A stretch of 64,000 bases of DNA, from the NCBI RefSeq assembly GCF_000021805.1, contig NC_011726.1, positions 2,760,097 to 2,824,096 on the forward strand, given 5' to 3'. Positions 6,629 through 20,753 of the stretch are shown here, piece by piece. The notes beneath the pieces are model-generated. The model had not been told where the DNA came from. It did no database searches and was given only the letters and a program-made list of their open reading frames with translations. The translations under genes and the position numbers were made by a program. Origin of the DNA: Rippkaea orientalis PCC 8801 (GTDB lineage Bacteria > Cyanobacteriota > Cyanobacteriia > Cyanobacteriales > Microcystaceae). Positions within the stretch are counted from its first letter, which is position 1. Every line of letters begins with the position of its first letter.

Positions 6629-6658
6629 TTGTGTATTTTAATTGTGTCTGCTTACTGA
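6629..6658. repeat. Left copy of a sequence repeated at the far edge of the RiPP island
   Basis: This 30-bp stretch ends in TCTGCTTACTGA. It nearly matches 19232-19260, which ends in TGTGCTTACTGA, in the same orientation. It lies 26 bp upstream of the island's regulator gene. It may be a duplicated boundary sequence or a shared regulatory sequence. Confidence 0.5.
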
Positions 6659-6684
6659 ATTAAGTTAAAAACAGGTTAAGAGTT

Positions 6685-7284
6685 ATGGATTTTGACCATC
6701 AGCAACAGAAGCATCACAATGAGATGCCCAAAAATTATTTAACGTCATTTCAGCGAAAAACCTTACAAAAAACCCTTGAAGGGGAGATTGAAGAAAAATA
6801 TCGTCAGCGAATTAAAATTATCTTATTAGCTGATGAAGGAAAAAGCCAAACAGAAATTTGTCAGTTATTAGGCTGCTGTCAGTCCACCGCTAGACATTGG
6901 ATCATGATGGCACGCAGTGGTCAAGCACATCGGTGGGAGGACAACAAAATTGGTCGTCCTAAAAGAGTCAATGAACAGTATTTAAAACGATTACAAGAAT
7001 TAGTTAGCCAAAGTCCCCGTGAGTTTGGCTATTCTTTTAAGCGGTGGACGGCAGAATGGCTCAGCAGACATTTGGAAAACGAATTTAACATTAAAGTGAG
7101 CGATCGCTATATTAATCAACTGTTGAAACAGATGGGATTATCCACGAAAGCAAACCCCAAAAAAGTTGATACTAACCCTTCTCATTCCTACCAAACGAAT
7201 AACCTACTCATTCGAGATTTACCTCTTGTTACTCAGGTCAATTTAGAACAAGTTCTATCATTGAATTTGCTCAAACAGGAATAG
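6685..7284 (+). CDS. Winged helix-turn-helix protein, probable regulator of the RiPP exporter operon
   Basis: This 199-aa protein has a homeodomain-like helix-turn-helix at about residues 45-75 (DEGKSQTEICQLLGCCQSTA). A second winged-helix region lies at about 110-155 (REFGYSFKRWTAEWLSRHLE through SDRYINQLLKQMGLS). This arrangement resembles the DNA-binding half of IS630-type transposases, but there is no DDE catalytic domain and the frame ends cleanly. It ends 5 bp before the exporter gene, so the two are surely co-transcribed. It could be a domesticated transposase DNA-binding domain working as a transcription factor. The regulatory role is inferred from position. Confidence 0.7.
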   Translation: MDFDHQQQKHHNEMPKNYLTSFQRKTLQKTLEGEIEEKYRQRIKIILLADEGKSQTEICQLLGCCQSTARHWIMMARSGQAHRWEDNKIGRPKRVNEQYLKRLQELVSQSPREFGYSFKRWTAEWLSRHLENEFNIKVSDRYINQLLKQMGLSTKANPKKVDTNPSHSYQTNNLLIRDLPLVTQVNLEQVLSLNLLKQE

Positions 7285-7289
7285 AAATC

Positions 7290-10010
7290 ATGGAAAAAAT
7301 CAAAGATTTTGTTTTCTCGCATCGTCAACTGACTGAAGCATTAGGCTATTCTCTACCTGAGAAAGACTACGTTTATTTACAGCAACAAATTAAAATTATT
7401 GAACCGGAAATCGGCTTATTTTGGGAAACGATTAAAGCAGAAGCGGGACTCTATATCGTTATTGGGGGAAAATCTCGATTGGTCAATCAAAGCAATGAAA
7501 AAATTTGCACCCTAGAAAGGGGAGATACCTTTGGAGAATGTCGATTTTTTCCCAATGAAAATTTTGAAAACTATGGAGTGAGGGCTGGTTTAAAAACTAA
7601 ACTTGCTTACCTTTCCCCTGAATTGTTGTTTCCTTTAATCACCCAATATCCTCAAATACGAGAACATTTTTATTATCAAGCACAACAACGAAATAGTCGT
7701 TTAAAACCCACAGAATCACTTAAAAATCAAGTCAATGTACCGTTAAATTTACCGACTAAACAGTCAGCACCACTTCCTCAAAAATCTCCAAAAATAATCA
7801 ATAAAGCCTACTTTCCCAGTCCCACCCAAAAAGTCAGTCATCTGCTACAAAAAGTATGGCGACGCTACCCATTTTATGCCCAACAAAGTGCCTCTGACTG
7901 CGGGGCAGCTTGCCTAGTGATGGTTGCCCGTTATTGGGGTAAAAAGCTAAGTGTCAACCGTTTACGCGATATTGCCAATGTAGATAGAAACGGGGCTTCT
8001 TTGCGGGGACTTTGCCATGCAGCAGAAAGCATCGGTTTTTCGACGCGACCGGTTAAAGCCAGTCTGGATAAATTAGCTGAACAAGAACTTCCAGCCATTG
8101 TTCATTGGGAAGGAAAACACTACATTGTTGTCTATGAAATCACCAAAAAACAGGTAGTGATCGCTGATCCTGCTATTGGACAAAAAATCCTAAGTCACCA
8201 GGAATTTAAACAACATTGGACAGGCTATACCCTGCTCTTAAAACCTACGATTGACTTCAAAAATACGAAAGAAAGTACCACTCCTTTTTGGCAATTTTTT
8301 GAGTTGGTTAAACCCCATGGATTGGTGATTTTTGAAGTTTTTATTGCTTCCCTATTTATTCAAATCTTTGGCTTAGTTACACCTATTTTTACCCAACTTA
8401 TTTTAGATCGGGTGGTGGTACAGCGATCGGATGTAACTCTATTTGCCGTGGGATTAGGGTTAATTATTTTTGGCTTATTTAGAGTTGCCATGATGGGATT
8501 GCGTCAATATTTATTAGATCATACGGCTAATAAAATAGATATTACCTTAATTGTGGCATTTATCAACCATACTTTTCGGCTACCCTTGGGATTTTTCGAG
8601 TCTCGTTATGTCGGGGATATTATTTCCCGTGTTCACGAAAATCGTAAAATTCAACGGTTTTTAACAGGGGAAGCTTTGTCAATTCTACTGGATTTAATCA
8701 CAGTTTTTATCTATGTAGGATTGATGTTTTGGTATAGCTGGAAAATGGCTCTTTTATCCTTAGTAATTGTTCCCCCTTTCTTGATCCTTGCCCTAATTGC
8801 AACGCCATTTTTAAAGCGGATTTCGAGGGAAATTTTTGGAGAAATGGCAAAAGAACAAAGCTATCTAATTCAAGCCCTGAGCGGAGTTCGTACCATTAAA
8901 TCGAGTGCTGTTGAAAGAACGGTTCGTTGGCACTGGGAAGAACTGTTGCATAAAGAAATCACGACACAATTTTCAGGACAAGTGATTGGCAACCGCTTAC
9001 AAATTTTTAGTAATGGCATTGAAGCATTAGCAACCACGGGGTTACTTTGGTATGGAGCATGGTTAGTGATCCAAAATCAATTAACCATCGGGCAATTGGT
9101 CGCGTTTAATATGCTGTTTGGTAATGTGATTCGTCCATTCCAAAGGCTCACAGTACTATGGGAACAATTGCAAGAAGTTGTCATTGCCGTTGAACGTTTG
9201 AACGATGTTCTGGACTACGACCCCGAAGAAGATTTACAAGAGCAATCACGGCAAATATTACCGAAAATTAAAGGTCATATTCGCTTTGATAATGTTACTT
9301 TTCGTTATCATCCTGAAAGTGATTTAAACGTCCTTGAAAATCTCAGTTTTGACATAAAACCTGGTCAAACTGTGGCCTTAGTAGGGCGCAGTGGTTCAGG
9401 CAAAACTACCATTTCTAAACTCGTTTTAGGACTGTATATGCCTACGGATGGTAAAGTCTTAATTGATGGTCACGATATTAACAGTTTGTCCCTCAGTTCT
9501 TTGAGACAACAAATTGGGGTTGTCGATCAAGATACCTTTCTGTTTGGGGGAACCATTCGAGAAAATATTAGTTTAGCTCATCCTGATTCTACCCTAGAAG
9601 AAATCATCGAAGCAGCTAAATTAGCTGGAGCCCATGACTTCATTCAAAAACTACCGATGGGGTATGAAACCAAAATAGGAGAAGGGGGAGGACTGCTATC
9701 AGGAGGACAGCGACAACGGTTGGCGATCGCCCGTGCTTTGTTGGGTAATCCTCGTCTCTTAATTTTAGATGAAGCTACCTCCCATTTAGATGCAGAATCA
9801 GAGCGCATTATTCAAACCAATTTAAACTCCATTCTTCGCCATCAAACTACCTTAGTTATTGCCCATCGTCTCTCTACAGTGAGGAAAGCAGACTTAATTT
9901 TAGTGCTAGATCAAGGAGTTTTAATTGAGAGTGGAACCCATGAGCAATTAATGGCAAAACAAGGCCATTATTATTACTTAAACCAGCAGCAATTAGATAC
10001 AGTTGATTGA
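7290..10010 (+). CDS. C39 peptidase-containing ABC exporter with N-terminal cNMP-binding-like domain
   Basis: This 906-aa protein is a bifunctional peptidase and exporter of double-glycine leader peptides. Residues about 30-135 resemble a cyclic-nucleotide-binding fold (GLYIVIGGKSRL, then GDTFGE). The C39 peptidase has its catalytic Cys at 204 (SDCGAAC), a His in WEGKHYIVV and an Asp in ADPAIG. Transmembrane helices follow at about 345-600. The ATPase has Walker A GRSGSGKTT near 699, signature LSGGQ at 803, Walker B LLILDEATSHLD and the IAHRLST histidine. It is followed at once by an HlyD-type adaptor. The four Gly-Gly peptides nearby are its likely cargo. HetC of heterocyst-forming cyanobacteria has a similar domain order. 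Confidence 0.93.
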   Translation: MEKIKDFVFSHRQLTEALGYSLPEKDYVYLQQQIKIIEPEIGLFWETIKAEAGLYIVIGGKSRLVNQSNEKICTLERGDTFGECRFFPNENFENYGVRAGLKTKLAYLSPELLFPLITQYPQIREHFYYQAQQRNSRLKPTESLKNQVNVPLNLPTKQSAPLPQKSPKIINKAYFPSPTQKVSHLLQKVWRRYPFYAQQSASDCGAACLVMVARYWGKKLSVNRLRDIANVDRNGASLRGLCHAAESIGFSTRPVKASLDKLAEQELPAIVHWEGKHYIVVYEITKKQVVIADPAIGQKILSHQEFKQHWTGYTLLLKPTIDFKNTKESTTPFWQFFELVKPHGLVIFEVFIASLFIQIFGLVTPIFTQLILDRVVVQRSDVTLFAVGLGLIIFGLFRVAMMGLRQYLLDHTANKIDITLIVAFINHTFRLPLGFFESRYVGDIISRVHENRKIQRFLTGEALSILLDLITVFIYVGLMFWYSWKMALLSLVIVPPFLILALIATPFLKRISREIFGEMAKEQSYLIQALSGVRTIKSSAVERTVRWHWEELLHKEITTQFSGQVIGNRLQIFSNGIEALATTGLLWYGAWLVIQNQLTIGQLVAFNMLFGNVIRPFQRLTVLWEQLQEVVIAVERLNDVLDYDPEEDLQEQSRQILPKIKGHIRFDNVTFRYHPESDLNVLENLSFDIKPGQTVALVGRSGSGKTTISKLVLGLYMPTDGKVLIDGHDINSLSLSSLRQQIGVVDQDTFLFGGTIRENISLAHPDSTLEEIIEAAKLAGAHDFIQKLPMGYETKIGEGGGLLSGGQRQRLAIARALLGNPRLLILDEATSHLDAESERIIQTNLNSILRHQTTLVIAHRLSTVRKADLILVLDQGVLIESGTHEQLMAKQGHYYYLNQQQLDTVD

Positions 10011-10048
10011 ATTTTACCTTGTTATTTTTTTATTTTTGGACTAATCCT

Positions 10049-11578
10049 ATGACTAACGGCTTTAAAAAACCACATATTCTTGAACAAACGCAAAATCATT
10101 TATTAGAAGATGATGAATTAATTTTACCCATTGTGGAAACGAACCCTAGGGATGATTGGGCTCATTCAACAAAAGATCTGCTAGATACTTTGCCCCGTGT
10201 TTGGACAAGGGGTTTGCTGTACTTTTTGGTCATTTTTGTTAGTATTGCTTTGCCTTGGGCAATGTTAGCCAAAGTGGATGAAACAGGAAAGGCGATCGGC
10301 AAGTTAGAACCCAAGGCAAAAACCTTAAAATTAGATGCTCCTGTCGATGGAAAGATTGCTTTCATTAATGTCAAAGAAGGCGATATTGTTAAGCCAGGAC
10401 AACGGTTAATTGAGATTGAATCTGAGTTAATCCAAGGGGATTTAAAACAGCACCAAACTAAACTAGAAGGAGAAGAACAACGGTTACATCAATTAAATAT
10501 TTTAGAGAAACAATTACAGTTAGTTTTCCAGACTCAACAGCAACAAAATGAAGCCCAAAAATTAGAAAAACTTGCTCAAGTAAATCAAGCAAGACAGAAT
10601 CTTGATCAACTGAGAAATTCCTATGGATTACAAAAGGAAGAAAAGCAAGCACAAGTCAATCAAGCTCAACAGGATTTAGAACATAATCAAAAAGCCGTTA
10701 AATTGGCAGAAATTCAGTTAAAAAATGCCCAAGGGGTTAAAGATCGTTATTCCTCTGCCGTTGAAGAAGGGATTGTTTCCCAAATTCAGGTAGTAGAAAG
10801 GGAAGATACAGTACAGGAAAGGAAAAAAACCTATGAACAAGCCAAGTCTGATATTGAACAGGCAAAACATCGTTTAGCAGAACAAAAAAGTAGTTATGAA
10901 CGGACGATTAAACAAGCTAGTGCTGATATTAAGGAAGCAGAATTAAGGCTGAAAGAACAAGAAAACAGCTATGATAGTTTAGTCCAGTCAGGGGAACTAT
11001 CTTTGCTCAAAAATAAAGAACAAATTAATAACCTACAAACGGAAATTACGACCCTTAAATCAGACATAAAACAAACCAAAAGTCAAATTCAAAATTTGCA
11101 GTTTCAGTTAAGCCAAAGAGTCGTAAAAGCTCCTGTTGCAGGAACGGTTTTTGATTTACCGATTGAAGCGGAAGGAGCCGTTGTTCAACCAGGAAATCGA
11201 CTTTTAGAAATTGCGCCTCAAGGAACACCTTTGATTTTACGAGCGCAAATGGCTACATCAGAAAGTGGTTCTGTGACTAAAGGAATGCCTGTTAAAATAA
11301 AGTTTGATGCCTATCCTTTTCAGGATTTTGGGATAATAGAAGGAAAATTAATTGAGGTTTCTCCAACGACATCAGAGATAGATACCTCAGAGGGTAAAAC
11401 ATTAGCTTATGACCTAAAAATTGAACTCAATCAAACTTGTATGCCAACCCCTAAAGAGTGTATTACATTACGTCCTGGCGATACAGCAATTGCAGAGGTT
11501 ATTATCCGTCAGCGTCGCATGATTGATTTTGTTCTTGATCCCTTTAAGAAATTACAACAAGGAGAGTTTAAGCTTTAG
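10049..11578 (+). CDS. HlyD-family membrane fusion protein
   Basis: This periplasmic adaptor links the inner-membrane exporter to an outer-membrane channel. I use the ATG at 10049 (MTNGFKKPHILEQ), 38 bp after the exporter stop; the frame also opens at a TTG overlapping that stop. One transmembrane helix (LLYFLVIFVSIALPWAMLAK) lies near residue 60. A lipoyl-like half (VDGKIAFINVKEGDIVKPGQ) precedes a coiled coil rich in Gln, Glu and Lys at about 125-360. The second lipoyl half is at VVKAPVAGTVFDLP, and a beta-barrel domain ends the protein. No TolC-like gene is present in the island, so a channel encoded elsewhere would be needed. Confidence 0.92.
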   Translation: MTNGFKKPHILEQTQNHLLEDDELILPIVETNPRDDWAHSTKDLLDTLPRVWTRGLLYFLVIFVSIALPWAMLAKVDETGKAIGKLEPKAKTLKLDAPVDGKIAFINVKEGDIVKPGQRLIEIESELIQGDLKQHQTKLEGEEQRLHQLNILEKQLQLVFQTQQQQNEAQKLEKLAQVNQARQNLDQLRNSYGLQKEEKQAQVNQAQQDLEHNQKAVKLAEIQLKNAQGVKDRYSSAVEEGIVSQIQVVEREDTVQERKKTYEQAKSDIEQAKHRLAEQKSSYERTIKQASADIKEAELRLKEQENSYDSLVQSGELSLLKNKEQINNLQTEITTLKSDIKQTKSQIQNLQFQLSQRVVKAPVAGTVFDLPIEAEGAVVQPGNRLLEIAPQGTPLILRAQMATSESGSVTKGMPVKIKFDAYPFQDFGIIEGKLIEVSPTTSEIDTSEGKTLAYDLKIELNQTCMPTPKECITLRPGDTAIAEVIIRQRRMIDFVLDPFKKLQQGEFKL

Positions 11579-11665
11579 GTTGGAGTTCAGAAGAATTACA
11601 CTTTCAGTGTGCTTATCTGGTTCATTTTCTTTGAGAAGTGCTTAATATTAATTTTGAACCCCTAG

Positions 11666-11782
11666 GATCATATTGAATTGATTAATCAATATGTAAAAGA
11701 AAGTCAACAGATTGGTAGAAGTGAAGGAATCAGAAACTTTAAAAATTCGCTTAGGGAAAATGTTGATAATAACTTAAGTTAG
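11666..11782 (+). pseudogene. Remnant of an unidentified coding sequence
   Basis: Read from GAT at 11666 to TAG at 11782, this stretch encodes 38 residues with protein-like composition (DHIELINQYVKESQQIGRSE and onward). An in-frame TAG stands directly upstream and there is no start codon. It looks like the 3' end of a decayed gene lying between the adaptor and the foldase. I do not recognise the parent family. Confidence 0.3.
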
Positions 11783-11834
11783 AAGTTAGAATTTAGTAAA
11801 TGAAGAAATATCAATTTTCAACTTAAAAGCAATT

Positions 11835-12566
11835 ATGTCATTATCTATCGCCATTACCGACGAAGAAATTCTCAAGCAAGTGAAATTATCTGGTAAAATT
11901 CCAGAAATCATAGAAGGGATTATTAACCGTCAAATTATTACCGAAGAAGCGACTAACTTGGGAATTAAAGTAGAAACTGAAGAACTTCAACAAGCCGCCG
12001 ATCAATTTCGATTATCGAAGAACCTCCACAGTGCCAATGATACTCATCAATGGTTAGAAAAAAATCAGCTTTCTGTCGATGATTTTGAAGAAATGCTTTA
12101 TTGTACCATTCTTTCTGGAAAGTTGGCCAACCATCTTTTTAATGATCAAATTGAAGCTTATTTCTATCAAAATCAATTAAATTATGCTGAAGTAGTAATG
12201 TATGAAGTTATCTTGGATAATGAAGACTTAGCGATGGAATTATATTATGCTATTGATGAAGAAGAAATGAGTTTTTGGGATGTGGCGCATCACTATATAC
12301 AGGATCAAGAATTAAGACGCAAAGGTGGCTATTTAGAAACCGTTAAACGTCAGGACTTAAAACCTGAAATTTCTGCTGCGGTTTTTGCTGCAACCCCTCC
12401 CGAATTACTAAAACCAATTATGACTTCTCAAGGCGTTCATTTAGTGTTTGTTGAGGAAATAATACAACCAGTGTTAAACGAGAAGAAACGTTATCAAATC
12501 TTAGCTGATTTGTTTTCTCAGTGGGTAAAGCAAAAATCTGAAGAAATTACAATTGTGGATAATTAA
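11835..12566 (+). CDS. PpiC/SurA-type peptidylprolyl isomerase, RiPP-island foldase
   Basis: This 243-aa protein has an N-terminal helical chaperone-like half (about 1-115) rich in Glu and Gln. It is followed by a parvulin-like domain at about 115-230, with the motif region RRKGGYLETVKRQDLKPEIS and the strand GVHLVFVEEI. No signal peptide is visible, so it is probably cytoplasmic or carried with the exporter. Similar genes often accompany C39 exporter/HlyD pairs in cyanobacteria. Its role here, handling peptides before or during export, is inferred from position. It ends 112 bp from the convergent 55-aa precursor gene. Confidence 0.8.
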   Translation: MSLSIAITDEEILKQVKLSGKIPEIIEGIINRQIITEEATNLGIKVETEELQQAADQFRLSKNLHSANDTHQWLEKNQLSVDDFEEMLYCTILSGKLANHLFNDQIEAYFYQNQLNYAEVVMYEVILDNEDLAMELYYAIDEEEMSFWDVAHHYIQDQELRRKGGYLETVKRQDLKPEISAAVFAATPPELLKPIMTSQGVHLVFVEEIIQPVLNEKKRYQILADLFSQWVKQKSEEITIVDN

Positions 12567-12600
12567 TAATCAACAATAGTTATTCTTAAGAAAAATTCAA

Positions 12601-12642
12601 AAACAAGCTGCTAGAGATTTTTGTATTTCTGGCAGCTTGTTT
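12601..12642. terminator. Bidirectional hairpin between convergent genes
   Basis: AAACAAGCTGC at 12601-12611 pairs perfectly with GCAGCTTGTTT at 12632-12642. The minus-strand reading continues into TTGAATTTTT, as expected of an intrinsic terminator for the 55-aa peptide gene. It lies between the stops of the foldase and that gene. Confidence 0.7.
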
Positions 12643-12678
12643 AAGGTATTGTTGTATAAGCTAATGAATCAGACTTAT

Positions 12679-12846
12679 TTATCTCAGAACGTGTGAAATG
12701 GCAAGACCGACAGCTACACCAAACCAGAACGCTCCACCATGAGTTTCATTAAGTTGATCATCGGTTAACTCAGCCATGAAACTTTCAGAATCAACAAACA
12801 AATCAGTACCAGCAGGATATAAATTTGAAATTGCAATGTTAGCCAT
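12679..12846 (-). CDS. 55-aa double-glycine RiPP/bacteriocin-like precursor
   Basis: This short gene was found by translating the minus strand. A strong ribosome site (GAGGAGG) lies about 10 bases before the ATG at 12846. The leader ends LTDDQLNETHGG, a classic double-glycine site for a C39 peptidase, with hydrophobic residues at the expected leader positions. Cleavage after Gly38 would leave the 17-residue core AFWFGVAVGLAISHVLR: hydrophobic, with small residues spaced as in membrane-active peptides, one Ser, no Cys and no Tyr-Gly. It is separate from the other precursor genes and convergent with the exporter operon. It may be an unmodified bacteriocin or a substrate of the island's enzymes. 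The sequence supports precursor status; the activity is unknown. Confidence 0.82.
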   Translation of the reverse strand: MANIAISNLYPAGTDLFVDSESFMAELTDDQLNETHGGAFWFGVAVGLAISHVLR

Positions 12847-13348
12847 TTTAAGAGTTCCTCCTCAGAAGAAATATTAGTTGTTTTAACTCTTTTATTTTAT
12901 TGTTCTTACCTTTATATGGCAACGCTTTTTATATTACAAAAAAGAAAAAAATATGACAATTACAAGTCATGATTAAAGCCCGAAAAACTGTTTTTGAGCT
13001 ATTTGACTTTTCCTCAATTCAGTTATATGTATGAAAGCTCGCGTTAAATGAACAAAAATTAAATTAATTATTTCTTTTTTAATCATAATTTTTTGCTAAC
13101 TTATCAAATAAACGAACAAGAAAATATAGACTAAAGATTAATCTTTAGTCTATGAATAGACAATCATTAAATTAAACTATCTTCCTGATTTAAAATAGTT
13201 ATCTTTGAGTTTTAAGTAGGTCGGTATAAATAAAGGTAGTAAAACCCCGATTTTTCCTTGGCTAAAATGGCTTGCCTTCGTTAACATATCCTAAAGTGAC
13301 AGAAGAGAGATAGATCAGGCTACATATTTTTTATCAACATTATCAAAA
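12847..13348. other. AT-rich intergenic region of the RiPP island
   Basis: This 502-bp gap separates the HopA1 gene from the 55-aa precursor, both on the minus strand. It holds the probable promoter of the precursor and the perfect palindrome at 13126-13153. No convincing further short gene with a ribosome site was seen on either strand. Confidence 0.6.
13126..13153. repeat. 28-bp perfect palindrome
   Basis: The half ATAGACTAAAGATT is followed immediately by its exact reverse complement with no spacer. It lies about 200 bp beyond the HopA1 stop on the minus strand. It may be a terminator-like cruciform or a binding site for a dimeric regulator. Confidence 0.6.
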
Positions 13349-14476
13349 TTAATTAGTCTTTGGCATAATCAAGGTCTGGTCATATATATTTTCAGACTGA
13401 CTATTCAGATAACTATATTGTAGATTAATTCCTAATTGAGAAAATTCTTGCAAAATAGCTTTCATTCGTCCTTCGGGAGAATCATCTCCCTGATACAAAG
13501 CTTCTAATAACCCATTAGCAATTATTTGACAACGGTTCATTCCAAAACTTTCTTTTTGGAAAAATTTTTGATTAGGTTCCTCTGCTAATCCTAACCCCGG
13601 TGCAAGTTCTAAAGTAAATAAAGGTGTTTCAGGCTTAAAATACTTTTGATAGTCTTGATAAATAATCCCTAAAATTTCTCTCACTGCTAAATAATTTTCC
13701 TTATCAAAATACAATACCCCTGAATCGTAGCGTTGGTAATCTTCAGGATTATATAATACCTTAAAACTAAAAGGTATTTCTTTATTATTTAACTGTTCAG
13801 TTAAACTTTTCATGATTTTAATAGCTCCTGAAGGAGTTAAATTAAAATAAATACGAACAGTAACTGATTGCTCAGCCAATTGTTTAATTATTTGATGGCC
13901 TTGATTACCAACGGCCATATAAAATCCATTTTGGACTAAATTTTTGGGCATCTTAATTGACACTGAATCTCCGACTACAGCATTTTTTTCAGAAACTTTG
14001 AGATATTTATCTGGATCAATATATAGTTTTAAATCCCCTTTAGTGACTATTAACCCATCATCTTCTTCTTTGATAACTAACCAACCTAAATCAAAATAAC
14101 CTTGTCCGTGGTTGTTGTTATCTAATTGATAATAAAATTGCAAATCTACCCCTAAAAAAGTATTATTTTCTAAATCAATTGGTCGGTTATTACTTTGTTT
14201 ATCTAATGCTAAAGATTTTCGCATTGAACCATTATAATAGATACCATAGAGAAAGCTTTGTAATTGTAAGCTAAAATATTTGTTCTTTATTGGTTCAGGG
14301 AGATTCTTAAAACGGGTAAATGATTCAGCAGGCAGTTCAAAAGGTTGATAATCAGGATGAATAATCGAGAAATTTGGTTTGATTTCAACATTTTTAACGA
14401 TGTCAGTCAAAACCTCTCGTAATTTCTGACTAATTTGATTAGACTGCTGAAGGGAAAGAGAATCAAGTAATTGCAT
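13349..14476 (-). CDS. HopA1-domain protein, candidate class V-type phospho-Ser/Thr lyase
   Basis: This 375-aa protein resembles the HopA1 effector family: a helical N-terminus, a central region with YYNGSMRKSLAL and FYYQLDNNNHGQGYFDLGW, and a C-terminal GLGLAEEPNQKFFQKESFGM. In class V lanthipeptide clusters (lexapeptide, cacaoidin, pristinin) a HopA1-domain protein acts with an APH-like kinase to dehydrate Ser/Thr. Here it lies 25 bp downstream of an APH-like kinase gene in the same operon, which supports that reading. It is the last gene of the minus-strand maturation operon. The family call is from overall pattern, without a catalytic motif I can name. Confidence 0.68.
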   Translation of the reverse strand: MQLLDSLSLQQSNQISQKLREVLTDIVKNVEIKPNFSIIHPDYQPFELPAESFTRFKNLPEPIKNKYFSLQLQSFLYGIYYNGSMRKSLALDKQSNNRPIDLENNTFLGVDLQFYYQLDNNNHGQGYFDLGWLVIKEEDDGLIVTKGDLKLYIDPDKYLKVSEKNAVVGDSVSIKMPKNLVQNGFYMAVGNQGHQIIKQLAEQSVTVRIYFNLTPSGAIKIMKSLTEQLNNKEIPFSFKVLYNPEDYQRYDSGVLYFDKENYLAVREILGIIYQDYQKYFKPETPLFTLELAPGLGLAEEPNQKFFQKESFGMNRCQIIANGLLEALYQGDDSPEGRMKAILQEFSQLGINLQYSYLNSQSENIYDQTLIMPKTN

Positions 14477-14501
14477 AATAGTTGAGTTACCAAAGTATTA
14501 G

Positions 14502-15656
14502 TTAAATAAAATTAGGTTGAGGTATTTGGGATGCCGCACTACCAAAGAGAGTCGGGATTGATTGAGTTGGACGACAAAGTAAGGTTTTAGCAACCTGAAG
14601 CATAGCAATCCCTGTATTTCCAAAAGATTTTTGATATTGAATCATCGCCTGAATTTGTCCAATTAAAGCAAATCCAGCACACTGAATTACCCGTTTTAAG
14701 AAATCAGGTTTATGTTCTGTGATTTCTGGAAAAGTATTAAGATAGGTAATATATAAAGTGGCAATAGAGGGTTGTAATAATTCTAAAGGCGTTGTTGCCA
14801 ATCGCAAAGATTCATCAATTGTTAAGGACTGACTAACGACTAAACTTCCGAGCCAAATTTGTATATAAGCTCCCATTAACATTCCTAAATCAAAAGTAGG
14901 ATCTCCCCATCCTGCTCGTTCCCAATCAATCAAACGAACCAGATTTTTTTGAGAGTTTTCCCAATCATTTAAGAGAAGAATATTATTAAGTTTTAAATCA
15001 TTATGGGTTAAACAAAGAGGGGTTATTGCTTGGCCTAATTCTGCGATCGCCTGTCCCAAACTATCATATCTTTGATAAAGGGCGAAGAATTTTAGTCCAT
15101 CGCTAGGAACCACACTAAAAATTTCGGGTGTAACCCGTTCTAAACTTTGAATTGATTTTAATATTGGGTTGGAATTAGGACTCCCTGACTCATTAGCAAA
15201 AAAGCCTTGATAATCTTTATTGTTAATTGTTTGGCGATGAATACTGCCCAAAGTTGTTGCCAAAGATGAAGCAATTACGGAGTTAAAAGTATTTTCCGTG
15301 GAATAAAAGCTTTGTAAATCTTGGTAATGATCGAAATAAGTAGTGATCACAATAGAATTATCCGGATCAAAATGCAAAACTTCAGGTACATAAGACCATA
15401 AATTATTAAGTTCTGGAAAATCTTGCAAAAATTTCTGTAACCGCCATTCTCCTAAAAATTCACCCGCCGTTTTGCCTTCTTGATTATGTCTTTCTTGTTT
15501 CACTAAAAGTTTTCGTGCATCTGAAAAACTAATGAGTAAATTAAAATTTTTAGCTAATATTGGTTCAATGTTAGCACTGTCTTTATCGGTGTCGTGACAA
15601 AGCTGATGCTCAATTAAATAGTCAAAAATATTCTGGGAATTTAAAATGAATGGCAT
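14502..15656 (-). CDS. APH-family phosphotransferase, candidate RiPP kinase
   Basis: This 384-aa protein starts at the ATG at 15656 (MPFILNSQN); two codons upstream the frame also opens at a TTG. The kinase catalytic loop LTHNDLKLNNILL is present, with the catalytic Asp and following Asn, then the metal-binding LIDWERAGWGDPTFDLGML, as in aminoglycoside and choline kinases. No resistance gene context exists. Paired with the HopA1-domain gene, it best fits a Ser/Thr kinase for dehydration, as in class V lanthipeptides. No clear ribosome site precedes it, so translational coupling to the upstream 59-aa gene is unlikely (about 140 bp apart). A small-molecule kinase role remains possible. Confidence 0.78.
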   Translation of the reverse strand: MPFILNSQNIFDYLIEHQLCHDTDKDSANIEPILAKNFNLLISFSDARKLLVKQERHNQEGKTAGEFLGEWRLQKFLQDFPELNNLWSYVPEVLHFDPDNSIVITTYFDHYQDLQSFYSTENTFNSVIASSLATTLGSIHRQTINNKDYQGFFANESGSPNSNPILKSIQSLERVTPEIFSVVPSDGLKFFALYQRYDSLGQAIAELGQAITPLCLTHNDLKLNNILLLNDWENSQKNLVRLIDWERAGWGDPTFDLGMLMGAYIQIWLGSLVVSQSLTIDESLRLATTPLELLQPSIATLYITYLNTFPEITEHKPDFLKRVIQCAGFALIGQIQAMIQYQKSFGNTGIAMLQVAKTLLCRPTQSIPTLFGSAASQIPQPNFI

Positions 15657-15796
15657 AAGCAATTAATCATTAATAATTAGAATAAAAATTTGGATAGTTA
15701 ACCAGAGGTTTGATTGATTTCCTATGGTTAGGTCAATTAAATCTTTGAAACTAATGAAATTGGTTGAATCAGCTAAATACATGGGAAAATTACCGA

Positions 15797-15976
15797 TTAT
15801 TTTTCGATAATTCCTGCTTCTTCTTCGATTTTATCTAAAGCTTTTTTGACTTTAAATAACGTTCGTAAATAAGCGATATTACTATTCCAAGCGGAACGGG
15901 GCAAAATCGGTTGTTTTGCTGCTTCATTTTCTGGAGTTCTTTCTAACCCACTAGATTCAATTAAGCTTTTTTCCAT
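15797..15976 (-). CDS. 59-aa unknown protein between RiPP enzymes
   Basis: A ribosome site GAGGAAA precedes the ATG at 15976. The product begins MEKSLIESSGLERTPENEAA, has a central PRSAWNSNIAYLR and ends in a charged helix (KKALDKIEEEAGIIEK). It has no Gly-Gly site and no hydrophobic core, so it does not look like a precursor. It starts 17 bp after the radical SAM stop, so it belongs to the operon. A small leader-binding or scaffolding partner of the maturase is one possibility. I do not recognise the family. Confidence 0.6.
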   Translation of the reverse strand: MEKSLIESSGLERTPENEAAKQPILPRSAWNSNIAYLRTLFKVKKALDKIEEEAGIIEK

Positions 15977-15993
15977 GGTACATTTCCTCAGAA

Positions 15994-17265
15994 TTAATGA
16001 TTAGAACCTACAAAAGATAACGTTTTATCTTTCCCTGTTTCCCAACCAGCAGGCCATTTAATTTTATCGGCTGAGAATCGCAATTGATCATTGTTATCTT
16101 CAGGCAAAGGACTATTAAAAGGTTCTTCAATTAACTCAAATACCCCATTGTCAAAAGGACTTCCTTCGGCCTGGTGTTTCAAGACAACTCGCTCCCGAAT
16201 ACCATTTTTTTCTTGAGTTAAAGCCCGATGGTGACAGTAAGGATTATTACCTCTTCGATCAAAGAAAACATGAGCCGTCCAACTGCAACCACCGCGACAT
16301 AATTCTGCAAATTCACAAGTTTTACAAAAACCCCAAAGATGGTCAGTGCCTTGGGGGGTTCCTGCCCCTAAATTGAAGCGCAATTCTTCCGTTTCTTCAA
16401 TAATTGTTCTGAGGGAATGATCCCGAATATTTCCCCCCGTATAGGCAGATGTTGGTAAAGAAGGACATCCTTTAATTGCGCCATCGGCTTCAATTCCTAA
16501 AGCAGATAGTCCGGCACTACATCCTTGCCAAAATGACCAAGCATCACCCCCGCGAAACAGTCTTTCATAGGGTCCATAATAACCAATATTATTACCTGCT
16601 TGAACACGGACTCCTTCCTGCTTTGCCCGTTGAGTAACTTTGGCTATCATGGGATAAATATCTAACAATTCGTAGGGTTGTAAAAGAATATGATTATTAT
16701 CAGCAGCCCTACCCATAGGAACGGTTAATTGAACTTGCCAGGCAAAGATTCCCGCATCTCGAAGACGTTCATAAAGTAGCGGAAATTCTGGAGCAGAAAG
16801 ACGGTTAATTTGAGTATTGCAACCAAAAGCAATGCCCGCTTCTTTAAGGTTACTCATGGTTTTAAATGCCCATTGCCATGAACCTTGTTTTCCCCGTTGA
16901 TAGTCATGGGTTTCTTCTAATCCATCAACAGAAACAGAAACGACTTTAATTCCTGCTTCTTTCATGCGATGGGCTGTTTCTAAGGTGATCCCATAACCAC
17001 CCGTTGTCATGCCACAAATCATGCCAGCTTTGGTAATAGCTTGGGCAATTTCTAACCAGTCTGGACGGAGAAATGCTTCTCCACCAATGATCGTAACTTC
17101 TTTAATACCAACCTCAGCCATTTGCTGCACTAAATTTAGGGCTTCTTCGGTTGAAAGTTCTTCAGTTCTATTGTGTCCAGCACGGGAGCCACAATGTTGA
17201 CAGGCGAGGTTGCACTTTAGGGTGATTTCCCAAACAGCATAACTAATTCGGCGATATTCTGTCAT
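15994..17265 (-). CDS. Radical SAM/SPASM RiPP maturase, candidate splicease
   Basis: This 423-aa protein carries the radical SAM motif CNLACQHC (Cys18, Cys22, Cys25) and the GGEAFLRPDW SAM-binding strand. A SPASM-type C-terminal region has many Cys (GCPSLP, FCKTCEFAELCRGGC, PYCHHRA) for auxiliary Fe-S clusters. It follows two Nif11-leader peptide genes on the same strand. Those cores contain Leu-Tyr-Gly-Val, the kind of XYG motif from which the PlpX-type spliceases of Pleurocapsa excise tyramine to leave an alpha-keto-beta-amino acid. Other chemistry (epimerisation, cross-linking) cannot be excluded from sequence alone. Confidence 0.88.
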   Translation of the reverse strand: MTEYRRISYAVWEITLKCNLACQHCGSRAGHNRTEELSTEEALNLVQQMAEVGIKEVTIIGGEAFLRPDWLEIAQAITKAGMICGMTTGGYGITLETAHRMKEAGIKVVSVSVDGLEETHDYQRGKQGSWQWAFKTMSNLKEAGIAFGCNTQINRLSAPEFPLLYERLRDAGIFAWQVQLTVPMGRAADNNHILLQPYELLDIYPMIAKVTQRAKQEGVRVQAGNNIGYYGPYERLFRGGDAWSFWQGCSAGLSALGIEADGAIKGCPSLPTSAYTGGNIRDHSLRTIIEETEELRFNLGAGTPQGTDHLWGFCKTCEFAELCRGGCSWTAHVFFDRRGNNPYCHHRALTQEKNGIRERVVLKHQAEGSPFDNGVFELIEEPFNSPLPEDNNDQLRFSADKIKWPAGWETGKDKTLSFVGSNH

Positions 17266-17318
17266 AATTTTGGAGATGAAACTATTTACTAAATCTTTTC
17301 TTAAAATGATGGCTTAAA

Positions 17319-17357
17319 GTAGGTGAGTACAAATCCTATTGAATTATACTTACCTAC
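17319..17357 (-). promoter_or_regulatory. Hairpin between precursor genes and the maturase gene
   Basis: GTAGGTGAGTA (17319-17329) and TACTTACCTAC (17347-17357) pair at 10 of 11 positions around a 17-base loop. It lies downstream of the last Nif11 precursor and upstream of the radical SAM gene. It could attenuate read-through or protect the precursor mRNA, so precursors outnumber enzymes. No T-run follows. Confidence 0.5.
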
Positions 17358-17395
17358 ATGAATTAATTAAGTCCGTCAACTTTCAGATGGTTTTA

Positions 17396-17734
17396 TTATT
17401 CTGAAATAACCACACCATAGAGAGGCTGAACATATTCAGGAGGCCAAATTACCCCATAAAGCGGTTGTATTTTTCCACGGCCAATCCGTGAACTAGCTCC
17501 CCCAAAAACGGCTTCTAGTTCTTTTTCATTGAGATCTTGTAAGTCTCCTTCATTGAGACTAGATTCTAACAGTTCAGAGGTGTAACTTTCAAATTCTTCT
17601 TGAGTGAAATTATAACCAGATGCCTGAACCAATTGGCTACATTCTTCTTTGCTTGTTACCTCTTGAAGTTGAGTGCGAAACGCCTCATCTTTGGCTAATC
17701 TTTGGTAAAAACTTTTAACATCAACTAATGACAT
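17396..17734 (-). CDS. Nif11-leader RiPP precursor with two PLYGV motifs (spliceotide candidate)
   Basis: This 112-aa peptide has a Nif11-type leader (about 1-79) ending ELEAVFGG, a Gly-Gly site at 78-79. The 33-residue core holds QPLYGVIWPPEYV and then QPLYGVVISE: the hexamer QPLYGV occurs twice, 13 residues apart, with Tyr93-Gly94 and Tyr106-Gly107. Leu-Tyr-Gly is the XYG type of site cut by spliceases, so two excisions per core are conceivable. The leader is collinear with that of the adjacent precursor, so the pair arose by duplication with divergent cores. It is 15 bp from the next gene upstream and 130 bp from the maturase. Confidence 0.9.
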   Translation of the reverse strand: MSLVDVKSFYQRLAKDEAFRTQLQEVTSKEECSQLVQASGYNFTQEEFESYTSELLESSLNEGDLQDLNEKELEAVFGGASSRIGRGKIQPLYGVIWPPEYVQPLYGVVISE

Positions 17735-17749
17735 GATTGACTCCTTTTT

Positions 17750-18058
17750 TTACATTTGATCTTTCAGAAAAACAACCCCATAAAGCAGAATGGGAATTAA
17801 GGGGAAGAAGGCGTGACTAACTCCACCAAATACGGCTTCTAGTTCTCGCTCATCGAGATCTTGTAGTTCTCCCTCTTTTTGAGAAGCTTCTAACAGACGA
17901 GAGGTGTAGGTTTCAAATTCTTCTTCAGTAAAATTATACCCAGCTTGTTGCACAAATTGGCTACATTCTTCTTTTGTTTTGACTTCTTGGAGTTCAGAGC
18001 GAAACTCCACATCTTGAGCTAGTCTTTCATAAAAAGCTCTGACATTTTCAAAAGACAT
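17750..18058 (-). CDS. Nif11-leader RiPP precursor with one LLYGVV motif
   Basis: I choose the ATG at 18058 (MSFENVRAFYERL), preceded by GGAGG; the frame also opens at a TTG five codons earlier. The 102-aa product has a Nif11 leader that aligns without gaps to that of the next gene downstream, again ending ELEAVFGG at residue 79. The core begins VSHAFFPLIPILLYGVV and is hydrophobic, with a charged tail. Tyr93-Gly94 falls at exactly the same position as the first Tyr-Gly of the sister precursor, although the rest of the core differs. That is strong sign of a positioned modification site. No Cys is in the core. Confidence 0.88.
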   Translation of the reverse strand: MSFENVRAFYERLAQDVEFRSELQEVKTKEECSQFVQQAGYNFTEEEFETYTSRLLEASQKEGELQDLDERELEAVFGGVSHAFFPLIPILLYGVVFLKDQM

Positions 18059-18062
18059 AGTT

Positions 18063-18506
18063 TTATCCTCCAAGGGTAGTAGGCATTGATACTTCTCGAA
18101 CTAATTCGGAAGCATTATAGTTATCAGTAATGATTTGGGGACAACGCATACAGGCTGCTTTTCCCTCTTGTTGAAACCAGCGACAATCTTTGCGAATAGC
18201 ACAAGGGGGTAATTGGGTTTCAGCAATAGGTAATTGCTGAACAACCCTTTGTGCTAAACGACAGTTACTACCATCAAAATGCTGGCATTGATGAGTCGCA
18301 CAAGCACTAGCAGTCCGAAAGACTTCTGCTGGTGTGACTGGTTCAGCCAGTGCTATTAATTCTTCGGTAACTGGTTGGGGGTTTTTGAGGTAAGCAACAC
18401 GCGGTTGGTCCACAGTTCCACTGATAACACCAAAGACGACACTGCCAGGTAATTCCGGTCGAGAACTGGGGCAAAGTGTTGTTTTGTTTGAGTTATCGTG
18501 TTCCAC
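18063..18506 (-). CDS. Cysteine-rich 147-aa protein of the RiPP operon
   Basis: The product has eight Cys, mostly in the C-terminal half: SACATHQCQHFDGSNC, then PPCAIRKDC, then AACMRCPQI. The spacing suggests a metal or Fe-S site. The N-terminal half (SVVFGVISGTVDQPRVAYL) looks like a beta-rich fold. It ends four bases before the start of a precursor, with the ribosome site inside its last codons, so translation is coupled. It may be the accessory partner of the radical SAM enzyme, as PlpY is of PlpX, but I cannot confirm homology. I do not recognise the family. Confidence 0.7.
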   Translation of the reverse strand: MEHDNSNKTTLCPSSRPELPGSVVFGVISGTVDQPRVAYLKNPQPVTEELIALAEPVTPAEVFRTASACATHQCQHFDGSNCRLAQRVVQQLPIAETQLPPCAIRKDCRWFQQEGKAACMRCPQIITDNYNASELVREVSMPTTLGG

Positions 18507-18521
18507 TGATTTACCTTTTAC

Positions 18522-18737
18522 TTAAAATTCGATTGTGGGGGGGAAAATTAATCCCAAGATAATGGGAGGAATAAAAGGAATACGAATATTGAGTGATCCT
18601 CCTTCAATATTTTTAGCTTCTTCTTCAGTGACATCAACTAAAGAATTTTCTGCCATTTGCTGTCTTCTGATGGCTGCATTGGCTACGGATTCTTCAATTA
18701 GATCTGCAATTTCAATTTGACCAAAATGCTTGTTCAT
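18522..18737 (-). CDS. 71-aa double-glycine precursor with Pro/Ile-rich core
   Basis: This first gene of the minus-strand operon encodes a peptide with an acidic helical leader ending VTEEEAKNIEGG (Gly46-Gly47). The 24-residue core starts SLNIRIPFIPPII and ends LGLIFPPTIEF: two PP pairs, many Ile/Leu/Phe, one Ser and one Thr, no Cys, no Tyr-Gly. The leader is unlike the Nif11 leaders and unlike the 55-aa peptide. Core Ser and Thr could be targets of the kinase/HopA1 pair. It starts with a GAGAAAG-type ribosome site. Precursor status is inferred from the GG site, size and position. Confidence 0.82.
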   Translation of the reverse strand: MNKHFGQIEIADLIEESVANAAIRRQQMAENSLVDVTEEEAKNIEGGSLNIRIPFIPPIILGLIFPPTIEF

Positions 18738-19306
18738 TTTTTTCTTTCTCCTAGAAGGGTTTGGAATAATTAATGAGAACCAATTTGCTCTTGACTCAAT
18801 TTTGAAAATCCTTTCTTAAAATGTCAAGAAGAAACTCACTAGATTTTGCCTATAAACTGAATAAATTATTTCTTTTTTTATTCAAGTTATTTTAAGTCCT
18901 CAAATAACATTAATGGTAGGTTGGATAAGGATCACTAAAAGGCTAAAATTTTTGTTTAGCACTGATTATCAGCCATTTACAGCCTAGGTTTCTTGACGAC
19001 TACCTACCTAATTCGACAGGATTTTATGAAAATTTTACCGGCTGTTGTGCTTTTTGTTAAAGGTTTAGCTCCCTGGATGAGAAATAACTAAAACAATTTT
19101 TTCTGAAATTCTGCTAAATTGATCGCCCTTTTAAGTGGCTAAACAAAATGAATTGCATGGTGGGCATTGCCCACAATAAGCTCTGAATAAGATTTTTCGC
19201 CTTTTACTAAGCAATACCCACCCTACAGTTTTTGTGTAATTAATTGTGTGTGCTTACTGATCTCCAGACTATTTGCTAGATTCAATCTGTTGAAGGCGAA
19301 TTTAGC
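18738..19306. other. Promoter region of the RiPP maturation operon and repeat-rich gap
   Basis: This 569-bp gap must hold the promoter of the minus-strand operon starting at 18737. It also has a TGGTGGGCATTGCCCACA palindrome near 19158 with CCCACCCTACAG near 19217, and the boundary-like repeat at 19232-19260. A 21-codon ORF at 19026 was judged unconvincing. Confidence 0.55.
19232..19260. repeat. Right copy of the island-edge repeat
   Basis: Nearly matches 6629-6658 in the same orientation, with about 25 matches over 29-30 positions by eye. It lies between the RiPP operon promoter region and the caspase-like gene. Confidence 0.5.
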
Positions 19307-20635
19307 TTACTTACTCAGTTTTTGCCAATGTTTAATAGAACGTTGAGCCCGATTGTAAAATGTTGGATGATCGGGAGGAACTAATTTAGCGGCGGCGATC
19401 GCAGCCGAAAAATTCCCTTGAATTGCCCGTCCTTCCGCAATTTCTAAAATTCCCTCACTCCACCGACTAATATGCTCTTGTGCTTCATCATAAAAAGGTG
19501 TATTGGGTTCAATTTGACGAACAATTTCAATGGCTTGATTTAGACGTGACGCTTGATTAACACTAATGCGCGTTTTAGCATAGTTTAAAACCTGTCGGTT
19601 TTCTTCCATCGCTTGATCTGCAAACTCTTGTTGACTGCTTTGAAACGGCTTTAATTTTAAGAAAATTAACCCCAAAAATCCTAGAATAAAACTGAAAAGA
19701 GCAGCCCAAATAAACCATTTAACGTTAAGCTTGGATTGGGGGCTAGTGGAAGAAGCAACAGGAGCTTCAGTGGGTGAGGTAGGAGAAGGTTGAGGCGATG
19801 GGACAACAGAAGTCCGAGATTTCGGTAAGCTAGGTAAGCTAAGCGTCCCTAGGGGAGCTGAAGCACTGACAGAGGTGTTTTGAGCCACAGTTGGGGTTAA
19901 TTTAACCTTAATTTGACTTGGTTTAATCTCTGATTGGGGAAAAGGAAGCAGAGGCAGACGACCAGCCGCTAAACTAGGACTAACCACCATGGGGGTGATT
20001 ATTGATAGATCGCGGGGACTTCCTAGAGGCGTTAACCGTTCTCGAAAATAAGCCTCTAAATTCGTTAAAGTTAGATGATAGCCGTAATAACGCAGGGCTT
20101 CTAATAAAGCCGTGGTAAACAGTCTTTCTGACACTTGAGGCGATGATACTGTGATAATCAAAGCAATACCTCGTTCTTTAGCTAAAGCGATCGCTCGTTT
20201 TTTAAAGCCTTTGTCCCCGTTGATTAACCGAATATTGAGGATCATTAATAATCGTTGGGTTTTGACTTGTAGGGTATCTAAGAGCGATCGCATTTCTATG
20301 GCTGTCTGGGGAATGGCTTGAGGATGGCCATCAATGGGAATGAGATAATTATGGCCTTGATGACTGATACCATAGCCTTGAAAGACAAACCAACCGAGTT
20401 TCACGTTATTGGGCCAGCGATCAAGCCATTGTTGAATTGTCTGTCGGTTAGGATAGGTGGATAATTGTTCGACTTGGGGGGAGGTATCGGTTAATAAAAG
20501 CAACTGATGATGGCAAATCTGGGCATTTTGGCTTAAATATTGGTACAATGCTTGGGCATTGGCTTCGGCATCCTGTAAGGGTTGCCAATAACGATAACCA
20601 TCTATCCCAATGGCCATCCCACGAAAATTTTCCAT
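19307..20635 (-). CDS. Caspase-like (peptidase C14 fold) protein lacking catalytic residues, membrane-anchored
   Basis: I use the ATG at 20635 (MENFRGMAIGIDGYRY), giving 442 aa; the frame opens at a TTG 36 bases earlier. Residues about 5-225 have the orthocaspase pattern (AIGIDGYRYWQPLQDAEANA). The usual HG of the catalytic His motif is replaced in FQGYGISHQGHNYLIPID by Tyr, and the expected Asp-Ala-Cys motif reads MILNIRL. Both dyad residues therefore appear lost. A Pro/Ser-rich linker, one transmembrane helix (FIWAALFSFILGFLGLIFL) near 310 and a C-terminal helical repeat region follow. Cyanobacterial orthocaspases with His-to-Tyr changes are known; this is probably a binding or regulatory protein. 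Confidence 0.75.
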   Translation of the reverse strand: MENFRGMAIGIDGYRYWQPLQDAEANAQALYQYLSQNAQICHHQLLLLTDTSPQVEQLSTYPNRQTIQQWLDRWPNNVKLGWFVFQGYGISHQGHNYLIPIDGHPQAIPQTAIEMRSLLDTLQVKTQRLLMILNIRLINGDKGFKKRAIALAKERGIALIITVSSPQVSERLFTTALLEALRYYGYHLTLTNLEAYFRERLTPLGSPRDLSIITPMVVSPSLAAGRLPLLPFPQSEIKPSQIKVKLTPTVAQNTSVSASAPLGTLSLPSLPKSRTSVVPSPQPSPTSPTEAPVASSTSPQSKLNVKWFIWAALFSFILGFLGLIFLKLKPFQSSQQEFADQAMEENRQVLNYAKTRISVNQASRLNQAIEIVRQIEPNTPFYDEAQEHISRWSEGILEIAEGRAIQGNFSAAIAAAKLVPPDHPTFYNRAQRSIKHWQKLSK

Positions 20636-20753
20636 CACTGGTTCATACACCTCCACACCACAACCGCTCAAACTTAACGATCAATTACCAGACAAATCCC
20701 CACTTGAGAGCTTAAAATAGAAAGGTTGTCAACTTATTCAGTGATCAGGAACG

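Follow-up and report, generated by a model that had tools for sequence, protein, structure and literature searches.

Does a locus that places a splicease-type radical SAM enzyme beside a peptide kinase and a HopA1-domain protein encode one pathway whose products carry both modifications, or several pathways that share an exporter? The island at 6629-19260 of a 64,000-nucleotide stretch of the Rippkaea orientalis PCC 8801 genome (hereafter the window) raises this question directly. The first-pass annotation of this DNA read the two enzyme sets as a single RiPP system. Every gene that it listed is present by ORF, Pfam and NCBIfam matches, as are four Gly-Gly precursors in three leader types and one C39 exporter common to both branches. 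Our analysis leads us to favor, with a probability of about 0.8, a model in which the locus is a modular RiPP island of the bacteriocin type, with one export chassis serving three independent precursor/maturase cassettes. Since related genomes hold these cassettes in nearly every combination, we regard the island as a swappable peptide platform rather than one doubly-modifying pathway. The anatomy of this model (genes, family membership, intact catalytic residues, the pairing of leaders with enzymes, cassette exchange and the kinship of the exporter with those of splicease islands) is read from sequence.

The island and its export chassis

The + strand of the island carries the export chassis, which we define as a winged-helix (wHTH) regulator, a long-type C39-ABC exporter, an HlyD protein and a PpiC foldase, and the − strand carries the four Gly-Gly precursors of three leader classes. 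The putative regulator, the first chassis gene (6685..7284, +), has a transposase-type DNA-binding domain with HTH_32, HTH_29 and HTH_33 matches at or above the Pfam cut-off, and it lies directly upstream of the ABC gene here and in homologous islands. The 906-aa exporter (7290..10010, +) is composed of an N-terminal cNMP-binding-like domain, a C39 peptidase (Peptidase_C39, 6e-44) and ABC membrane (ABC_membrane, 5e-48) and ATPase domains; the cNMP_binding match is weak and sub-threshold (E 6e-4, 20.1 bits against a Pfam cut-off of 27.5). An HlyD-type membrane fusion protein (10052..11578, +; HlyD_3, 2e-23) and a PpiC/SurA-type rotamase, or foldase (11835..12566, +; Rotamase, 1e-10), complete the chassis. 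The nearest NCBIfam model of the latter is TIGR04500, “peptide maturation system protein” (7e-19, below cut-off).

This build has a precedent in the group II long-type bacteriocin clusters. In the part of Wang et al. (2011, PMC3140520) devoted to them, these clusters have the same exporter, with an N-terminal nucleotide-binding-like domain and C39, together with HlyD and a rotamase/SurA protein, and they likewise hold several Gly-Gly precursors per cluster, N11P included; multiple precursors are presented there as normal for the long type. The window has the group II feature set, namely a C39-ABC exporter with a weak N-terminal nucleotide-binding domain, HlyD and a rotamase. That same part of the account does not tie leader classes to splicease, LanKY or c147 cassettes and does not describe cassette exchange.

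In order of transcription the − strand reads pre71, c147, NifA2, NifA1, the radical SAM (rSAM) gene, s59, the kinase gene, the HopA1 gene, a terminator-like element and pre55. The element, between HopA1 and pre55 (13126..13153, −), is a perfect 12-bp stem with a T-rich tail, and an Rfam scan of the island region returned no matches. A gene for a caspase-like protein (19307-20671, −; Peptidase_C14, weak) adjoins the island and gives no sign of belonging to it. We envision that, through the GG signal common to the four precursors, every peptide would be cleaved and released by the one C39 exporter. Cut after GG and left unmodified, the cores would weigh 3670.99 Da (NifA1), 2646.47 Da (NifA2), 1842.03 Da (pre55) and 2719.61 Da (pre71).

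A splicease cassette

The splicease-like branch proposed in the first-pass annotation is borne out. The radical SAM/SPASM enzyme (15994..17265, −) scores 842 bits against TIGR04103, a splicease-family model with a cut-off of 725, and it is the single enzyme of the source genome above that cut-off. We take TIGR04103, a model that none of the papers searched mentions by name, to be the IPR026482 subclass. That subclass is the one named for PlpX (PMC11002830). Two Nif11-leader precursors accompany the enzyme: NifA1 (17396..17734, −; Nif11, 7e-16), with core ASSRIGRGKIQPLYGVIWPPEYVQPLYGVVISE and two putative LYG splice sites, and NifA2 (17750..18058, −; TIGR03798, 9e-14), with core VSHAFFPLIPILLYGVVFLKDQM and one. 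The LYG contexts in these cores, KIQPLYGVIW, VQPLYGVVI and PILLYGVVF, closely resemble those printed for the PlpXY splicease, for which tags were built on PIRPLYGLPI and AVAAGYGVVFPG (PMC10533398).

The 59-aa protein s59 (15797..15976, −) is a near-universal rSAM partner: its gene adjoins the rSAM gene in nearly all of the 91 distinct rSAM loci that we gathered from an even draw of cyanobacterial genomes and from named genomes. It has the core motif LLPRSAWxSQxAYLR and is placed as expected of a PlpY-type protein. Its predicted structure is a single helix (residues 28-54) with no winged-helix RRE fold, and on this model, which gives one helix only, we reject its identification as a full RRE. 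PlpY-type partners are described as truncated RREs, and s59, an rSAM neighbor with one predicted helix, is a possible counterpart.

The spliceotide clusters of the PlpX/PlpY type (Pleurocapsa PCC 7319; PMC11002830, PMC10533398) thus provide the closest frame for this cassette, with an rSAM/SPASM enzyme, Nif11-leader precursors, a small rSAM-adjacent partner and LYG/MYG sites in a PLYG or LYGVV context in common. Unlike these clusters, the window island lacks an epimerase gene, has as partner a 59-aa protein predicted to be a single helix, and bears further cassettes and a SurA/PpiC-type chassis. By analogy, the TIGR04103 enzyme and s59 would excise tyramine at the LYG sites of both Nif11-leader peptides, with a predicted loss of 135.07 Da per site, which amounts to 270.14 Da for NifA1 and 135.07 Da for NifA2.

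A kinase/HopA1 cassette

The second branch had been called class V-like, and it does consist of LanK/LanY homologues with intact active sites. The HopA1/LanY-type protein, a putative phospho-Ser/Thr lyase (13349..14476, −; PF17914, 7e-60), is the only HopA1 protein of the source genome. It matches LxmY of the lexapeptide dehydratase (PDB 9DK1, 9dk1_B) at 6e-8 alone and at 7e-10 as a profile, and its catalytic set (R208, K239, R249 and Y256) is intact; the matching Arg, Lys, Arg and Tyr of CaoY have been shown or inferred to be catalytic (PMC9486802). The APH-fold kinase (14502..15662, −; APH, 3e-12) has a listed TTG start, with an ATG two codons later at 15656. Its best NCBIfam match is LxmK (NF038156), nearly full length (3e-22) at 79 bits against an equivalog cut-off of 315, and K55, E72, D222, N227 and D246 are invariant. 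All 28 kinase relatives tested (28/28) match the LxmK family and keep the main kinase active-site residues. Judged by these matches, the window kinase is a LanK homologue with an intact active site and is not an LxmK equivalog.

Known class V LanK/LanY pairs (CaoKY, PMC9486802; LxmKY, PDB 9DK1, PMC12141560; TvaCD and KinCD) similarly combine an APH-fold kinase with an adjoining HopA1-family lyase and keep the catalytic residues. In contrast to these pairs, the window kinase falls far below the LxmK equivalog cut-off, and no LanX, decarboxylase or reductase gene was seen. LanK/LanY pairs with “type-B” precursors, confined to cyanobacteria, are already known (PMC9486802).

The precursor assigned to this cassette, pre55 (55 aa; 12679..12846, −), has the leader box DLFVDSESFM, a GG and the core AFWFGVAVGLAISHVLR, which contains one Ser, no Cys and no XYG. 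A peptide in L224, from a genome of another family, is 71% identical and has the core LFWFGVAVGLAISHLLRNH; the conserved core [A/L]FWFGVAVGLAISH[V/L]LR recurs there with the same Ser, and a similar core with that Ser occurs in L088, from a genome of the window's own family. We considered a lanthipeptide identity for the window peptide and rejected it: without Cys in the core no lanthionine is possible, and the island ORFs include no second APH-like or LanC-like gene, that is, no LanX cyclase. Most box-type cores elsewhere are also without Cys.

We propose that the LanK-type kinase phosphorylates Ser/Thr in peptides whose leaders carry a DLFxDSESF-type box upstream of the GG, and that the lyase carries out the beta-elimination. 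In pre55 the single core Ser would be phosphorylated and then eliminated to dehydroalanine, for a predicted loss of 18.01 Da. A core with a single Ser makes an unusually poor LanKY substrate, and this counts against the modular reading. The reactions assigned here and above, like co-export, co-transcription and any joint action of the peptides, are what we infer from the anatomy of the island.

Two further sets of kinase/HopA1 genes are worth recording. In one HopA1 clade, widespread in the window's order, the catalytic Lys is replaced by Gln or Glu (L091, L098, L102-L108, L110, L112, L114, L116, L117 and L119, around 8.7-10.9 kb of each locus). Its members have their own kinase and have neither an export chassis nor box-leader peptides nearby, and this kinase/lyase pair may have a different, perhaps non-dehydrating, role. 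Second, divergent kinase/HopA1 copies with degenerate catalytic residues (YNRR, SYRQ) sit beside an intact copy in L136 (11748-14080) and L094 (13101-15344).

A candidate third cassette

The first-pass annotation missed a third cassette, formed by pre71 and c147. The 71-aa GG precursor pre71 (18522..18737, −) has a leader of the third class and a core, SLNIRIPFIPPIILGLIFPPTIEF, that contains the motif P..xxG[LI]I; c147 (18063..18506, −), of 147 aa, has eight invariant cysteines, matches no Pfam or NCBIfam family and gives a poor AlphaFold model (pLDDT 51). The two genes are 16 bp apart in the window, and in general pre71 lies mostly within about 150 bp of c147. Precursors of the pre71 type were seen in 32 loci, each of which has c147 (32/32), and in none of 81 loci without it (Fisher 1e-12 for the rSAM loci). 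The P..xxG[LI]I motif is found in 27 of 33 pre71 cores, against 2.3 expected from shuffles.

Three loci (L225, L226 and L227) have c147 on a chassis without splicease or kinase/HopA1 genes, and in two of these, L226 and L227, which have no Nif11 precursor either, the pre71/c147 pair is present. Because the pair occurs on splicease-free chassis and pre71 cores contain no YG, we disfavor pre71 as a splicease substrate. In our model c147 would act on the peptide from pre71 or together with it. We tentatively suggest, as a possibility on the weaker side, that the two form an undescribed RiPP cassette in which c147, probably metal-binding, matures P..xxG[LI]I peptides or is needed to mature them. 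One of three chemistries in the island would then be new, and c147/pre71 is the part of the island most likely to be new chemistry.

Leader classes and enzyme sets

Whether the enzyme sets share substrates can be approached through the precursors of islands that have both splicease and kinase/HopA1 genes (dual islands). Every Nif11 core has an XYG, in dual islands (46/46) as in splicease-only ones (85/85; 131/131 in all), and none of the 59 cores with a pre55-type box leader in dual islands has one (0/59). XYG and the leader box therefore never share a precursor in dual islands, which argues against the earlier proposal of one system with doubly modified products. The Ser/Thr content of Nif11 cores is not significantly higher in dual (0.082) than in splicease-only islands (0.070; p 0.16).

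The leader box, [LFM][FLI].{1,2}[DEGSY].[ED][SNTD][FY][LM], typically DLFxDSESFL, follows the kinase/HopA1 genes. Among GG peptides gathered by an N-terminal pattern independent of the box, it is borne by 68/79 in dual, 70/93 in kinase/HopA1-only and 2/37 in splicease-only islands, and the corresponding counts of loci are 24/26, 23/23 and 2/22. The association with kinase/HopA1 has a Fisher value of 1e-17 on peptides, a figure to be read in the light of a box defined after the data were seen and of loci that share ancestry. In 4 of 5-6 phylogenetically independent pairs the box accompanied kinase/HopA1, and the opposite was seen in essentially none, numbers too few for significance. The state of the lyase gives a further tie: box peptides lie near 47 of 50 HopA1 genes with the full R-K-R-Y set and near none of 15 with the K-to-Q/E replacement, although these 15 form one clade and so may reflect one evolutionary event. 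At the level of sequence, this pattern ties the box to lyase chemistry.

The box is not exclusive to LanK. A DLFxDxETFM box, common with pre55, occurs in the same genome in the leader of a Cys-rich GG precursor (L200, 1417-1623) that adjoins a gene for a LanM-type synthetase (L201, 10078-13314; a 1078-aa ORF with a LANC-like C-terminus; G000:C3, about 2053775). The box may thus mark dehydratase substrates in general. With every leader class following one particular enzyme set, a doubly modified molecule is unlikely.

Cassette exchange among cyanobacteria

The same components are shuffled among related genomes. Among loci with a recognizable chassis all seven combinations were seen: splicease, c147 and kinase/HopA1 in 19, splicease and c147 in 15, kinase/HopA1 in 13, splicease in 12, c147 in three, c147 and kinase/HopA1 in two, and splicease and kinase/HopA1 in one, figures that depend on locus sampling. 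There are 61 rSAM loci flanked by at least 8 kb on either side; a HopA1 gene lies within about 10 kb in 21 of them and is missing from 40, and all 21 are on the same export chassis (21/21); the neighborhood thus recurs across genera, and two thirds of splicease loci are without HopA1. Together with the 13 kinase/HopA1 chassis without rSAM, this comparison of homologous loci speaks mostly against a single system.

The kinase/HopA1 label switches at least 15 times over the rSAM tree (six forced by well-supported branches; shuffled mean 21.4). On the exporter tree the window and other dual-island exporters group among the splicease-only ones, and kinase/HopA1-only exporters stand apart. The dual label clusters strongly on the HopA1 tree (eight changes vs 21.4 shuffled, with one clade of 25 rows of which 19 are dual), partly due to the many loci sampled through the rSAM gene. 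This clustering points to one HopA1 lineage with a lasting tie to splicease islands, a tie that modularity by itself leaves unexplained.

The window's two closest relatives are set apart by exactly one cassette. L121, from the unicellular cyanobacterium SU3, has all three cassettes in the same order as the window. L120, from a Crocosphaera MAG (rSAM 89% identical, exporter about 86%), has the splicease, c147 and the chassis and no kinase/HopA1; a small GG peptide, without Ser/Thr in its core, is all that the 495 bp between its s59 and PpiC genes encode. The simplest history is one in which the kinase/HopA1/pre55 cassette enters and leaves the s59-PpiC slot of splicease islands. Box-free, short-leader GG peptides, such as KGGCPICILLIGAAVG, occupy this slot in splicease-only L120 (3813-3956), L127, L130, L134, L070 and L167.

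Alternative explanations

Could the neighborhood be a coincidence, with two unrelated RiPP loci that came to lie side by side in this genome? Each of the gene sets is widespread in filamentous cyanobacteria. However, among 386 evenly drawn cyanobacterial genomes, of which 20 have a TIGR04103 enzyme over cut-off and 55 have HopA1, a HopA1 gene lies within about 5 kb of a TIGR04103 gene in seven, against 0.10 expected (P about 2e-11), and dual islands amount to 26 distinct loci with gene order alike in most. We reject chance adjacency on this recurrence across genera and give it hardly any weight. A hybrid pathway, in which one precursor is modified by both splicease and kinase/HopA1 to yield alpha-keto-beta-amino and dehydroamino residues, would fit the arrangement of the genes, as the kinase gene follows the rSAM gene, co-directional and within 1.5 kb, in 18 of the 26 dual islands, and the first window Nif11 core has Ser residues near its LYG sites. 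Set against this are the strict separation of XYG from the leader box, the unremarkable Ser/Thr content of dual Nif11 cores, and the frequency with which each enzyme set is found alone; we consider such a pathway improbable.

A third alternative is compatible with the modular anatomy and adds a functional tie: the cassettes could be kept together by the joint action of their products, as in a two- or three-peptide bacteriocin, beyond the sharing of an exporter. The HopA1 clade concentrated in splicease islands (19/25 rows), the arrays of paired, glycine-rich hydrophobic peptides in several dual islands, and the single orientation and short gaps of most dual islands are all consistent with synergy. 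However, splicease-only sister islands put other small GG peptides in the same slot, and the rSAM tree shows frequent changes of the label, so that a fixed partnership is not needed. We hold synergy to be possible, though doubtful, and continue to favor the modular island with one chassis and three independent cassettes.

Known components and implications

Splicease clusters and LanK/LanY pairs are each already known, and a large splicease survey is credited with 939 predicted systems where it is cited in PMC10533398. In a literature search that lay outside this survey, we found no description of the leader-box rule, of c147 or of the recurrent splicease and LanK/LanY combination; the first-pass annotation likewise knew of none for the combination.

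These findings suggest that cyanobacteria may diversify their secreted peptides by swapping whole precursor-enzyme cassettes on a fixed exporter, with each cassette addressed by its own leader class. They also provide a rule in which a DLFxDSESF box together with a catalytic-Lys HopA1 predicts which anonymous Gly-Gly peptides are dehydrated. Finally, the small, cysteine-rich c147 family may represent a new maturation enzyme.
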